Shown here in pieces: positions 9,449-63,397 of a stretch of 64,000 bases of DNA. The DNA is taken from NCBI GenBank assembly GCA_903916595.1, contig CAIWXI010000130.1, positions 1 to 64,000 on the forward strand, read 5' to 3'. Position 1 is the stretch's first letter. The number at the start of each line of letters is the position of its first letter. Below the pieces are notes generated by a model. It made no database searches. It saw only the letters and a program-made list of their open reading frames with translations, and was not told the DNA's origin. This stretch comes from an uncultured Bacteroidales bacterium. GTDB taxonomy: Bacteria > Bacteroidota > Bacteroidia > Bacteroidales > FEN-979. A program made the translations under genes and the position numbers.

Positions 9449-9454
9449 TGGCAG

Positions 9455-9503
9455 ATGTACGATGTGCGATGTACGATGTACGATGTACGATGTACGATGT
9501 ACG
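9455..9503 (+). repeat. Tandem array, 7 x ATGTACG heptamer
   Basis: Seven head-to-tail copies of a 7-nt unit, one copy reading ATGTGCG, beginning 6 nt after the tatD stop codon. It runs directly into the octamer array. Three overlapping ORFs in the track here are products of the repeat and not genes. Confidence 0.97.
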
Positions 9504-9506
9504 ATT

Positions 9507-9626
9507 TTCACCATTTCACCATTTCACCATTTCACCATTTCACCATTTCGCCATTTCACCATTTCACCATTTCACCATTTCACCATTTCACCATTTCACC
9601 ATTTCACCATTTCACCATTTCACCAT
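9507..9626 (+). repeat. Tandem array, 15 x TTCACCAT octamer
   Basis: Exactly 15 copies of an 8-nt unit in 120 nt, with a single variant copy (TTCGCCAT). The array ends 10 nt before the ansA start codon and so replaces any normal leader. The same octamer recurs at 10745-10768 and, in reverse complement, at 31266-31289. Confidence 0.98.
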
Positions 9627-9636
9627 TTAATTCTGT

Positions 9637-10912: not shown

Positions 10913-11023
10913 TGTTTATCCGGTGCCAGACCAATTTTAAAGATTAACCATATACACAATGCGTACGTCAAAGTCAAGTGATATGCTAACAATCGGGGAA
11001 CGCAATGCTCACACCTAATTCAT

Positions 11024-11031
11024 TATCTTTG
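11024..11031 (+). promoter_or_regulatory. Candidate -7 box TATCTTTG before the AsmA-like gene
   Basis: A TAnnTTTG match 21 nt before the ATG at 11053 and inside the longer ORF called from 11005, which supports the shorter start. No clear -33 TTTG at the right distance. Confidence 0.5.
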
Positions 11032-11052
11032 TTACAAATAAGGACCAATTCT

Positions 11053-13968
11053 ATGAAAAAAGCCGCCAAAATCACCGGCATCAGCCTGGCTGCTGTGATG
11101 CTGCTTCTAATTCTAATGCTCATAAGCCCATTTATCTTCAAAGATAAACTCTCGGCGATCGTCAAATCAACAGCAGGTAAAACGCTTAAAACCGAACTGA
11201 ATTTTTCAGAAATGGATATTTCCTTCTTCCATTATTTCCCCAATCTTACCATCACTCTTACGAATTTCTCACTTAAGGCTTCCGCACCTTTCTCAAAGGA
11301 TACCCTCATCAAAGCCAGTGACATATCCTTTGGCGTGAACCTCATGAGTGTTCTTAATGGCCCACTCAAAATCACAAAGGCCTACCTGAACAAAGCCAGG
11401 ATTGTGCTTCAATATGATGAAAAAGGCGCATCCAGCTTCGATGTTTATGCGTCAACACCCGATAGCCTGCCTGACCAGACCAACACATCATCCGGCGAAG
11501 CCGAAATTAAAATTGAAAGTATTGCATTTATAAAATCTGTCCTTGTTTATTCGGATCCTTCAATGCCTGTAAAAATAACGGCTCATGGCATCAACTACAG
11601 GGGTAAAAGCAGTCTCAGTAAGGATATTCTCAGACTGGCATCCAATGTAAGTATAGATTCTCTTTCTGTTGAATATAATCATGTAAACTATATCAAATCG
11701 AAACCCCTCAAGGCAGACCTCATCACATCCATCAACCTGAATTCCCTTGATATGAAGTTCGAAAAAAATGATTTTACCCTTAAAAACATTCCTTTTCAGT
11801 TAAGGGGCGAGTTTGGTTTCAGGAAGGAAGGATATGACCTTTTTCTCTCACTTTTTTCGATGTATGGAAATCAATATGTAAGTGGTTCACTGCGGATGAT
11901 CAGCACCAAAAAACTATGGATTGCCGCAAAAGCCGATGTGAACATGAACCTTCAGGAATGGGGCGTGGGCCTCGGATTAAAAGACTTTGAACTGAAAGGG
12001 ATGTACTCCCTGAAGCTTGATGCCAGCGGAGATTATTTCGCCGGACAAAACCCTCGCAGCAAAAATCCTGACACCATACTTCTCAGCATCCCCAATTTCA
12101 CCCTCACTTCTGAACTGAGAGACGGGTATTTCAGGTACAAGCAGTATCCGCAGGCCCTGAGCGGAATCTCGGTGAATCTTTCAGCCTCCTGTAAAGACCA
12201 TAACTATGAATCGATTAAGCTCAGTGTGGATAAACTGAAGGCGGGATTTCTGAAAAATAAAATTGAAGGAAATTTCAGCGTGAACGGGCTTAAGGACCTG
12301 CCGGTTGAAGGGAACCTCACTACCAGTCTGAACCTTTCGGAGATCAGGCAACTCATCCCGATCGACAGCCTCGACCTTGGAGGGCTTCTCGATCTGAACC
12401 TGAATGTAAAAGGAAATTATGCCCCTGAAAAAAAACTTTTTCCAACGAGTACCCTCAGCATCAGACTGTCTAACGGAGAAGTTCAGACAAAATACTATCC
12501 TCGTCCGATAGACCAGATCAATATGATGGTCACAGTGACCAATCACACCGGAAAACTGGATAATACAAAGGTAAAACTGCAACCTTTTTCGTTCCGCTTT
12601 GAAGGTAAGCGGTTTGAAGTTACCGCAGACCTGAGCAATCCCGATGACCTGTCGTATAACATTGCTTCAAAAGGTTCAATCGACCTGGCCAAAGTCTACA
12701 GGGTTTTCTCCCGCAAGGGTATGGAACTGGCAGGATACATTGAAACTGATCTTAAACTGAGAGGCCGGCAGAGCGACGCAATGGCAGGGAAAATTGAAAA
12801 ACTTTACAATTCCGGCCGCCTTACCCTGCATAATATTGCTTTTACATCCGATTACCTGCCGAAAGTTTTTGTGATAAAATCAGGTGTTTTCCGTTTTGAG
12901 CAGGATAAGGTCTGGTTTGAAAAATTCGACGGCCGGTATGGCGCCTCAGATATAAGGATGGACGGCTATCTAAGCAATGTGGTTAATTATGTGCTTTCGG
13001 ATAAGCAAAAACTGAAAGGCAATTTTAATTTTAATTCCGACTACCTGCTGGTGGATGAGTTTATCCCCGGAACCAATCCGTTGGCTGCTTCGGATCCGGG
13101 AGCGAGGATACAGGATCCAGGATCCGGGATGCAGGATCCGGGAGCCGGAGTGGTAGTGATCCCCCAAAACCTGGAAATCGGATTGAAGGCAAATCTCAGG
13201 AAGGTTGGTTATGGCAAACTCGGGATTCATGACCTGAATGCTGCCGTGGAGGCGAAGCAGGGAATGCTTCTGTTAAAGAATATGAACTTTGAATTGATCG
13301 GCTGCAGGGTGGCAATGGATGCAACTTATGGCAGCATCAACACGCTCAGGGCATTTTTCGATTTTCGGGTGTCGGCAAAGGATTTCGACATTAAAAGAGC
13401 ATATAACGAAGTGGAATTGTTCCGGAACTTATCCACCTCCGCCGGAAAATGCGAGGGAATTGTTTCCCTTGATTATTCCCTGAAAGGAAAGCTCGATGCC
13501 GGAATGAAGCCGGTGTATCCTTCTCTGGAAGGTGGCGGAGTGCTCAGCCTTAAAAAGATCAGGGTGATGGGGCTAAAGCTTTTCACCGACATGAGCAAGA
13601 ACCTGGATAAGGAAAAGATAAAAAACCCCGACCTTTCAAAAGTTGAATTGAAGACATCCATTAAAAATAATGTGATCTCACTCGAAAAAACAAAAATAAA
13701 AATGGCCGGCTTCCGCTTACGCATCGCGGGCGAGAGCAATTTTAACGGAAGCATAAACCTGAAAGCACGCCTGGGCCTGCCCCCTCTCGGTATCTTCGGG
13801 ATCAACATGAGGCTGCTTGGCACCATGGATAACCCTAAATTCAAATACGGCAAAGGCAGCGGTGATGATGACGTTGCAGAAACAGAATACTCCGATGAAC
13901 TTCCCCGGGAAATGCTCGACAAGATCAAAAATGCAAAAGAGGAGGATCTGAAAGACGAGCCCCAATAA
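11053..13968 (+). CDS. AsmA-family envelope protein
   Basis: A 971-aa inner-membrane-anchored periplasmic protein of the AsmA/TamB/YhdP type, a family linked to phospholipid transport and outer-membrane assembly. One N-terminal membrane helix (about residues 6-30) is followed by long amphipathic beta-strand repeats; the C-terminal AsmA-like region (GGGVLSLKKIRVMGLKLF, about 830) is clear. The acidic C-terminus is unusual (DEL, DKIKNAKEEDLKDEP). I use ATG 11053 and not 11005 because the signal-anchor starts there and a -7 box lies between them. A heptamer DNA repeat (13092-13147) inserts a DPG-rich, 7-aa-periodic segment near residue 685, unlike the rest of the protein. Confidence 0.88.
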   Translation: MKKAAKITGISLAAVMLLLILMLISPFIFKDKLSAIVKSTAGKTLKTELNFSEMDISFFHYFPNLTITLTNFSLKASAPFSKDTLIKASDISFGVNLMSVLNGPLKITKAYLNKARIVLQYDEKGASSFDVYASTPDSLPDQTNTSSGEAEIKIESIAFIKSVLVYSDPSMPVKITAHGINYRGKSSLSKDILRLASNVSIDSLSVEYNHVNYIKSKPLKADLITSINLNSLDMKFEKNDFTLKNIPFQLRGEFGFRKEGYDLFLSLFSMYGNQYVSGSLRMISTKKLWIAAKADVNMNLQEWGVGLGLKDFELKGMYSLKLDASGDYFAGQNPRSKNPDTILLSIPNFTLTSELRDGYFRYKQYPQALSGISVNLSASCKDHNYESIKLSVDKLKAGFLKNKIEGNFSVNGLKDLPVEGNLTTSLNLSEIRQLIPIDSLDLGGLLDLNLNVKGNYAPEKKLFPTSTLSIRLSNGEVQTKYYPRPIDQINMMVTVTNHTGKLDNTKVKLQPFSFRFEGKRFEVTADLSNPDDLSYNIASKGSIDLAKVYRVFSRKGMELAGYIETDLKLRGRQSDAMAGKIEKLYNSGRLTLHNIAFTSDYLPKVFVIKSGVFRFEQDKVWFEKFDGRYGASDIRMDGYLSNVVNYVLSDKQKLKGNFNFNSDYLLVDEFIPGTNPLAASDPGARIQDPGSGMQDPGAGVVVIPQNLEIGLKANLRKVGYGKLGIHDLNAAVEAKQGMLLLKNMNFELIGCRVAMDATYGSINTLRAFFDFRVSAKDFDIKRAYNEVELFRNLSTSAGKCEGIVSLDYSLKGKLDAGMKPVYPSLEGGGVLSLKKIRVMGLKLFTDMSKNLDKEKIKNPDLSKVELKTSIKNNVISLEKTKIKMAGFRLRIAGESNFNGSINLKARLGLPPLGIFGINMRLLGTMDNPKFKYGKGSGDDDVAETEYSDELPREMLDKIKNAKEEDLKDEPQ
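13092..13147 (+). repeat. Eight GGATNCN-type heptamers inside the AsmA-like CDS
   Basis: Eight consecutive 7-nt units (GGATCCG, GGAGCGA, GGATACA, GGATCCA, GGATCCG, GGATGCA, GGATCCG, GGAGCCG) encode a DPGxxxQ-like repeat in frame. The unit is the same family as the 20-copy array at 63054-63193. Confidence 0.93.
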
Positions 13969-31265: not shown

Positions 31266-31289
31266 AAATGGTGAAATGGTGAAATGGTG
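31266..31289. repeat. Tandem array, 3 x AAATGGTG (reverse of TTCACCAT family)
   Basis: Three perfect copies. AAATGGTG is a circular permutation of the reverse complement of TTCACCAT, so this is the same octamer family inverted. Confidence 0.93.
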
Positions 31290-31291
31290 AA

Positions 31292-31319
31292 ATCTGATAT
31301 CTGCTATCTGTTATCTGTT
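31292..31319. repeat. Tandem array, 4 x ATCTGNT heptamer
   Basis: ATCTGAT, ATCTGCT, ATCTGTT, ATCTGTT. The last copies overlap the stop codon (31311-31313) and final residues of the GT51 gene, so the repeat forms the end of that protein. Confidence 0.92.

Positions 31320-62659: not shown

Positions 62660-63397
<738 letters not shown>

Follow-up and report, generated by a model that had tools for sequence, protein, structure and literature searches.

An in-frame heptamer array in an AsmA-like gene, probably one copy of a dispersed 7-8-bp microsatellite class in a Bacteroidales lineage

The 7-bp array at positions 13092-13147 in an AsmA-like gene of an uncultured Bacteroidales bacterium is, with a probability that we put at roughly 0.72, one copy of a class of dispersed microsatellites with 7-8-bp units that proliferates in this lineage, its copies being seeded by copying, expanded by slippage and filtered by the reading frame. 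The repeat peptide of the AsmA-like protein is most likely a by-product of the DNA and not a selected repeat.

Results

Arrays in the window

The window, by which we mean the whole stretch of DNA analyzed, was 64,000 nt long (assembly GCA_903916595.1, contig CAIWXI010000130.1 or C130, positions 1-64,000), and its genome (G000) has 3.79 Mb and is 97.8% complete. All genomes used were MAGs or drafts, and long arrays may be collapsed in such assemblies. The arrays of the window and their host genes were as follows.

9454-9505, + strand: (GATGTAC)n, another 7-bp family, intergenic, about 6 bp past a stop codon (TRF)
9506-9628, + strand: (CACCATTT)n, an 8-bp family, intergenic, abutting the 9454-9505 array, its end about 9 bp ahead of the following start codon
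10746-10770, + strand: short (CACCATTT)n array between genes
11005-13968, + strand: host gene, AsmA-like protein of 987 aa (Pfam AsmA at residues 17-184, E=4.7e-14)
13092-13147, + strand: 7-bp array with GGATCCG/GGATACA/GGATGCA units, 8 units, in frame (direct reading, TRF)
31266-31319, - strand: composite intergenic array, 7-bp AACAGAT/AGATATC-type units joined to (CACCATTT)n
62660-63397, - strand: host gene of the next array, conserved protein of 245 aa (ORF, orthologue comparison)
63052-63196, + strand: GGATGCG/GGATGCA array of the same DNA family as the 13092 array, 20.7 units, antisense to its host (direct reading, TRF)

The array in the AsmA-like gene has 56 bp with a period of 7 (GGATCCG, GGAGCGA, GGATACA, GGATCCA, GGATCCG, GGATGCA, GGATCCG and GGAGCCG, in this order). 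The original prediction had described eight in-frame GGATNCN units, and the array, the frame and the 7-aa period were all found, but only six of the eight units were exactly GGATNCN and the other two were GGAGCNN. TRF called the array at periods 7, 14 and 21. In-frame translation gave the peptide SDPGARIQDPGSGMQDPGAG with a 7-aa period, and the lag-7 identity of the array was reached by none of 2000 codon shuffles (p<1/2000). Two-unit GGATNCN matches numbered 16 in the window against 0.21 expected, a number reached by 0 of 100 shuffles. By orthologue alignment, the array residues (696-715) fall in a length-variable linker flanked by the conserved ...VDEFIP and VVVIP.... AlphaFold2 on six sequences was uninformative for this linker (mean pLDDT 33.7), so the label "loop" is based here on alignments and domain borders.

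The second array was read in ORF 62660-63397 (-) as RIPHPAS repeats, antisense to its host, in agreement with the earlier claim, and it occupied a variable Pro/Glu-rich linker of the 245-aa protein, which had no match in Pfam or NCBIfam. The orthologues of this protein also had a Pro/Glu-rich linker at the site, and heptamer DNA was not obvious in them.

The same AsmA linker in sister species

AsmA orthologues were present in all seven congeners (G001-G007); those with names are MAGs of uncultured Bacteroidales, and several of them come from Lac Pavin. A period-7 array was found in the linker (...VDEFIP to VIIIP...) in seven of the eight genus members, with about six different units, and the lag-7 identity of these arrays was unmatched by codon shuffles. 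The units by genome were as follows.

G000: GGATNCN
G001: GGATCCA
G002: YGAGCCA
G003: GCAGTCR
G004: AACCGKR, then GATCACR
G005 and G006: GGRAGCR
G007: none

The linker peptides differed among the species as well (DPGARIQ, GSGKREAG, SHEPRAM and NREPETG). What is kept at this site is thus period-7 DNA, with 7-mers that vary between species, and not the peptide, which bears out the proposal that the DNA and not the peptide is common; the same peptide without repeat DNA, which would point to protein-level selection, was seen in no orthologue. Outside the genus, the linker showed no clear periodicity, with one borderline case (G015, p=0.02).

Dispersal counts covered three of the linker units other than GGATNCN (YGAGCCA, GGRAGCR and GCAGTCR), and each of the three was dispersed in its carrier genome and absent from most sisters. 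Among 25 genomes, YGAGCCA was found only in G002 (44 matches, 12 loci), G003 and G005, and GGRAGCR only in G005 (86), G006 (32) and G003 (2). GCAGTCR was found in G003, G004, G007 and three other genera, and was absent from G000, G001, G002, G005 and G006. That the linker unit is a dispersed unit of its own genome is the strongest single argument for arrival from elsewhere in the genome and not birth on site. What spreads apparently differs from one species to another, with the loop refilled by a unit active in the genome concerned, and the protein seems to tolerate whichever repeat this is. The reversed GGRAGCR control gave 129 matches in G011, so a further heptamer family seems to be present there.

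Repeat families across the genome

Genome-wide totals were taken from pattern counts, and gene context from a 631-kb sample of G000 that was partly picked for arrays, so that densities are biased; gene calls were long-ORF heuristics. Searching the whole of G000 with three-unit patterns gave 583 matches for GGATNCN (250 forward and 333 reverse), 574 for CACCATTT (319 forward and 255 reverse) and 524 for GATGTAC (276 forward and 248 reverse), and the reversed-pattern control gave 0 in each case. The sample contained about 125 period-7/8 arrays, of which the 13092 array is one. Periods 7 and 8 accounted for 73 and 37 of the perfect arrays with at least three copies in the 631 kb, against 3 at period 6, 1 at period 5 and 0 at periods 9-13, which means that the frame-keeping periods 6 and 9 were nearly or wholly missing; shuffled sequence gave 0 perfect arrays for periods 6 to 12. 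By the heuristic gene calls, 33 of 41 CACCATTT arrays were intergenic and 31 of 52 GGATNCN arrays lay in long ORFs. GGATGCR units carry GG or GGG tracts, and the CACCATTT and GATGTAC units are free of GGG on either strand.

The genome-wide scan proposed earlier therefore yielded hundreds of GGATNCN matches on both strands, in genes and between genes. Spread or expansion at DNA level is supported, but not as the spread of a single element, since several 7- or 8-bp families spread here; the sister species have their own sets of units, and local expansion in three-unit steps also shapes the copies in genes.

The three-unit GGATNCN pattern occurred in 30 of 295 genomes of the order, mostly in few copies, with bursts in two genomes from other taxonomic families (395 matches in G308 and 106 in G269). 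The CACCATTT octamer was absent or single in the congeners and present in several other genera. Units appear to burst repeatedly in different lineages.

Host genes and empty sites

By Pfam and NCBIfam, the hosts included UvrA, NuoC/D, a DnaE-like polymerase III alpha, a MurF-alanine racemase fusion, a short-chain dehydrogenase, CysRS, EPSP synthase (AroA), a MeaB-like protein, a chorismate-binding enzyme, MutY and histidine kinases. The CysRS array lay between the catalytic and DALR_2 domains, and in the short-chain dehydrogenase and EPSP synthase the array split a single domain, with the frame kept on both sides. The host list and the kept frames fit tolerance in loops and speak against contingency switching.

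The double UvrA-like protein has a variable loop between an ABC signature and Walker B. This loop had 11 aa in eight genomes (G002, G004 and G007 of the genus, and G008, G010, G013, G014 and G015 from the family outside it), 23 aa of GGATNCN-type sequence in G001, G003, G005 and G006, and 102 aa in G000, where a GGATGCR array adjoined one of the GTACGAT type. In the last ABC domain, the corresponding loop was short in G001, had one to three RIPHPAS-type units in G007 and G002, and had about 40 residues of the other family in G000. The NuoC/D-like protein had 44 array residues in G000 and none in G020. Empty sites, which the original prediction had suggested looking for, were thus found in the UvrA-like and NuoC/D-like genes.

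Near the window, synteny gave no empty sites, gene order being lost beyond AsmA itself in the stretches compared, and no insertion in progress was seen. The sister genomes, with about 75% protein identity in AsmA, are too diverged for base-by-base alignment of empty and filled sites. In the AsmA and UvrA tree, G001, G003, G005 and G006 grouped with 86% support, and the placement of G000 was not firm.

Some single hosts deserve mention. A UvrA-like fusion of 1738 aa (L145:10225-15441, contig C75) carried five period-7 arrays, several in ABC-ATPase loops, and the congeners had the same double UvrA-like fusion with other arrays or none. In MutY (L140:15688-16902), the array switched strand midway, reading QDAGCRMQD and then ILHPVSHIPHP, at the palindrome GATATC. 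A histidine kinase loop (L093:3121-4179) read CILHPAS or CILHPES, conserved in three congeners, and is apparently an old low-copy array retained as protein sequence; an LptF/G-like identity of this protein was ruled out, as NCBIfam gives histidine kinase.

Strand, frame and growth inside genes

GGATNCN arrays in genes were 13 sense and 16 antisense (p=0.71). Seven is not a multiple of 3, so one array runs through all three frames, and the downstream frame is kept only by three-unit changes. A higher-order period of three units (21 or 24 bp), called where identity at a three-unit distance was higher by more than 0.02 than at distances of one, two and four units, was found in 18 of 32 in-gene arrays versus 2 of 27 intergenic ones (Mann-Whitney p=9e-4). 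An earlier classification gave 18 of 26 in-gene versus 5 of 26 intergenic arrays (p=6e-4). These pooled tests were significant, and the same test within the GGATNCN family alone was not (p=0.15). The three-unit period of in-gene arrays indicates that arrays grow in place and that this growth is filtered by frame.

Array ends, composites and gene borders

Arrays ended in constant phase. The 3' end of (CACCATTT)n was ...CATTT in 33 of 41 arrays and the start was (A)TTTCACC in 31 of 41, and (GTACGAT)n arrays started with GATGTAC in 12 of 18. Two families were joined within 45 bp in 13 of 116 clusters, often at GAT or ATTT. Short microhomology at AT-rich or GAT-containing targets, or directed insertion, would either of them explain the constant phases; undirected copying does not obviously predict them, though AT-rich targets could give this result. 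No target-site duplication or terminal inverted repeat was apparent at the array borders examined, and the arrays did not have the near-fixed length and terminal inverted repeats of a discrete element, their lengths being variable and their borders being unit-internal ATTT or GAT.

Two simple rules were tried and dropped. A 4-bp palindrome with a 3-bp spacer fits GTACGAT, GATATCN, GGATCCN and GGATGCA, but, by reasoning only, not CACCATTT, GGATGCG and several units of the relatives. An inverted-array (snap-back) origin was rejected as a general one, since both orientations occurred in just 2 of 33 GGATNCN clusters by a strict test.

The intergenic arrays kept close to gene borders. All eight GATGTAC arrays with a stop codon 5' started at most 10 bp from the stop (window 9454-9505 and seven other loci), and of the 23 CACCATTT arrays followed by a start codon, 11 ended within 8 bp of it. 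At window 9506-9628 and about ten other loci, (CACCATTT)n often ended 0-8 bp before the start codon as a G-free leader, which could influence translation initiation, Shine-Dalgarno sites being little used in this phylum. Several (CACCATTT)n arrays (L144, contig C73, near 125-195 and 10095) were directly preceded by a longer repeated stretch, ...cattacggcttcgccgaa, which may belong to a larger repeat.

Discussion

Origin of the arrays

Under the preferred reading, a short piece of an abundant array would be copied to another site; template switching at 3-4-bp microhomology in replication or break repair is the probable route. The new copy would then grow and shrink in situ by whole units, a step supported by the data, with 7-8 bp strongly favoured in G000 and with slippage as the presumed driver of growth. 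Selection, for which there is likewise support, would act as a filter and leave intergenic arrays close to stop and start codons; in genes, arrays would survive only in indel-tolerant loops, in either orientation, and would grow mainly in three-unit multiples (21 or 24 bp). A bolder version, in which bacterial heptamer arrays are true mobile microsatellites with directed copying and defined ends, the unit dying out and the unit of the next lineage refilling the same loops, is rather unlikely.

The nearest competitor is purely local birth, in which slippage starts from a chance direct repeat in each linker and nothing is transferred between loci. Slippage is the accepted origin of simple repeats, the polymerase footprint has been named as the cause of the heptamer excess (Mrazek 2007, as cited in PMC4692102), and constant-phase ends would follow from a shared 12-bp seed; but a few unit sequences dominate the genome at hundreds of sites, the AsmA linker unit is one dispersed in that species, and there is no obvious seed in the UvrA loop of relatives with the empty site, so we regard local birth as unlikely. 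The constant ends, ATTT(CACCATTT)n and GAT(GTACGAT)n, could also be the work of a dedicated or hijacked enzyme that adds or inserts units with defined ends, like a telomerase or a transposase acting on a mobile array, and the strict unit size of 7-8 bp and the recurrence in other genera of an octamer that is nearly absent from the congeners agree with this. However, neither a target-site duplication nor a terminal inverted repeat is apparent at the ends, and the unit sequences are diverse, which is not expected from a fixed template. The zero matches to RVT_1 in G000, given its completeness of 97.8%, speak against a reverse transcriptase as repeat source, and an enzyme-driven spread is decidedly unlikely on this evidence.

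Two further explanations look to function. A 7-bp step shifts the frame, and in Haemophilus influenzae the 7-bp repeats upstream of hmw1A act as a phase-variation switch, so the arrays might be contingency loci in which slippage turns genes on and off. We consider this highly improbable here, since the hosts are housekeeping genes (CysRS, AroA, MutY, UvrA, NuoC/D) and not mainly surface genes, those examined were in frame on both sides of the array, and the three-unit steps suggest selection against frame loss. Alternatively, a 7-aa Pro/Gly/Asp-rich linker peptide could be favoured in AsmA-like proteins with the DNA repeat as its consequence, and the linker is indeed rich in proline and glycine in most AsmA orthologues and in-gene arrays do keep frame. 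But the linker peptides are unlike between species, both DNA strands are used in genes, intergenic gaps are filled by the same units, and a protein repeat does not require a 7-bp DNA period; protein-level selection is thus hardly credible as the cause.

Relation to known repeats

A full-text search of a limited literature collection for such arrays in Bacteroidales found none. Tandem 7-bp units above chance at many unrelated sites on both strands, as found here, are the character of the dispersed heptamers of the Xanthomonas, Nostoc and Chloroflexus type. The heptameric GGGNATC simple sequence repeats of Xanthomonas and Nostoc (Rehm et al. 2015, PMC4692102, which also mentions three heptanucleotides of Calothrix) share the 7-bp units, the many dispersed arrays on both strands, lengths that differ between related species and positions often near stop or start codons. 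They are under-represented in genes, favour four units and, for 83% of those in Xcc, have kept their position in Xac (PMC4692102), whereas here several 7-8-bp families occur together, conserved genes contain many of the arrays in frame, and a single site holds different units in different species. The TAACTGA direct repeats of marine Beggiatoaceae, cyanobacteria and some Bacteroidetes (MacGregor 2015, PMC4679880) are likewise heptamer arrays scattered over the genome, and in Bacteroidetes they also stand beside other heptamer arrays and are missing from the same gap in close relatives. Unlike the present arrays, they have another unit sequence and are mostly intergenic, upstream of starts; stops in all frames of the forward repeats account for the few in-gene copies (PMC4679880). 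In Chloroflexus aurantiacus, the (GATAGRA)n heptamer satellites, judged by the authors to have been transposed, are scattered through one genome in a similar way, but they are 22 satellites of one family (PMC6749651), and here there are several families, bursts in several related species and in-gene copies.

Rickettsia palindromic elements in protein genes (Ogata 2000, as reviewed in PMC2229807) are repeat DNA tolerated in frame in conserved proteins, and in-frame copies in conserved proteins with empty orthologous sites were found here too. Those elements are described there as having 105-146 bp and terminal inverted repeats (PMC2229807), and the arrays here are tandem, of variable length and without such ends. 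Dispersed bacterial heptamers and in-frame insertion of repeat DNA were therefore known already, and the present case joins both. Its repeats are of the array type, belong to several families that coexist and lie in frame in core enzymes, and from one species to the next a different unit occupies the same site.

The STRR heptamers of heterocystous cyanobacteria, as in G000, are tandem heptamers with several sequences per genome, and they are known as non-coding. Refilling of a single coding site by species-specific units is not known to have been described for them.

Significance

Heptamer excess in bacteria is documented, and slippage governed by the polymerase footprint has been proposed (Mrazek 2007, as cited in PMC4692102), but the reason for the over-representation is unexplained. 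This lineage is a natural experiment on it, with one loop, eight genomes and about six units, and every linker unit tested was dispersed in the genome that carried it. Spread from site to site can be told apart here from growth at a given site, the latter under frame selection. The sequences suggest that core enzymes such as CysRS, AroA, MutY and UvrA can accommodate a DNA-driven peptide of tens of residues, and annotators should bear in mind that 7-aa repeat peptides of this kind need not mean function. On the side of assembly, one contig of the sister genome G003 (start of G003:C274, L040:1-60) ended exactly within the AsmA linker array, and judged from this case, MAG contig ends may often lie inside such arrays.
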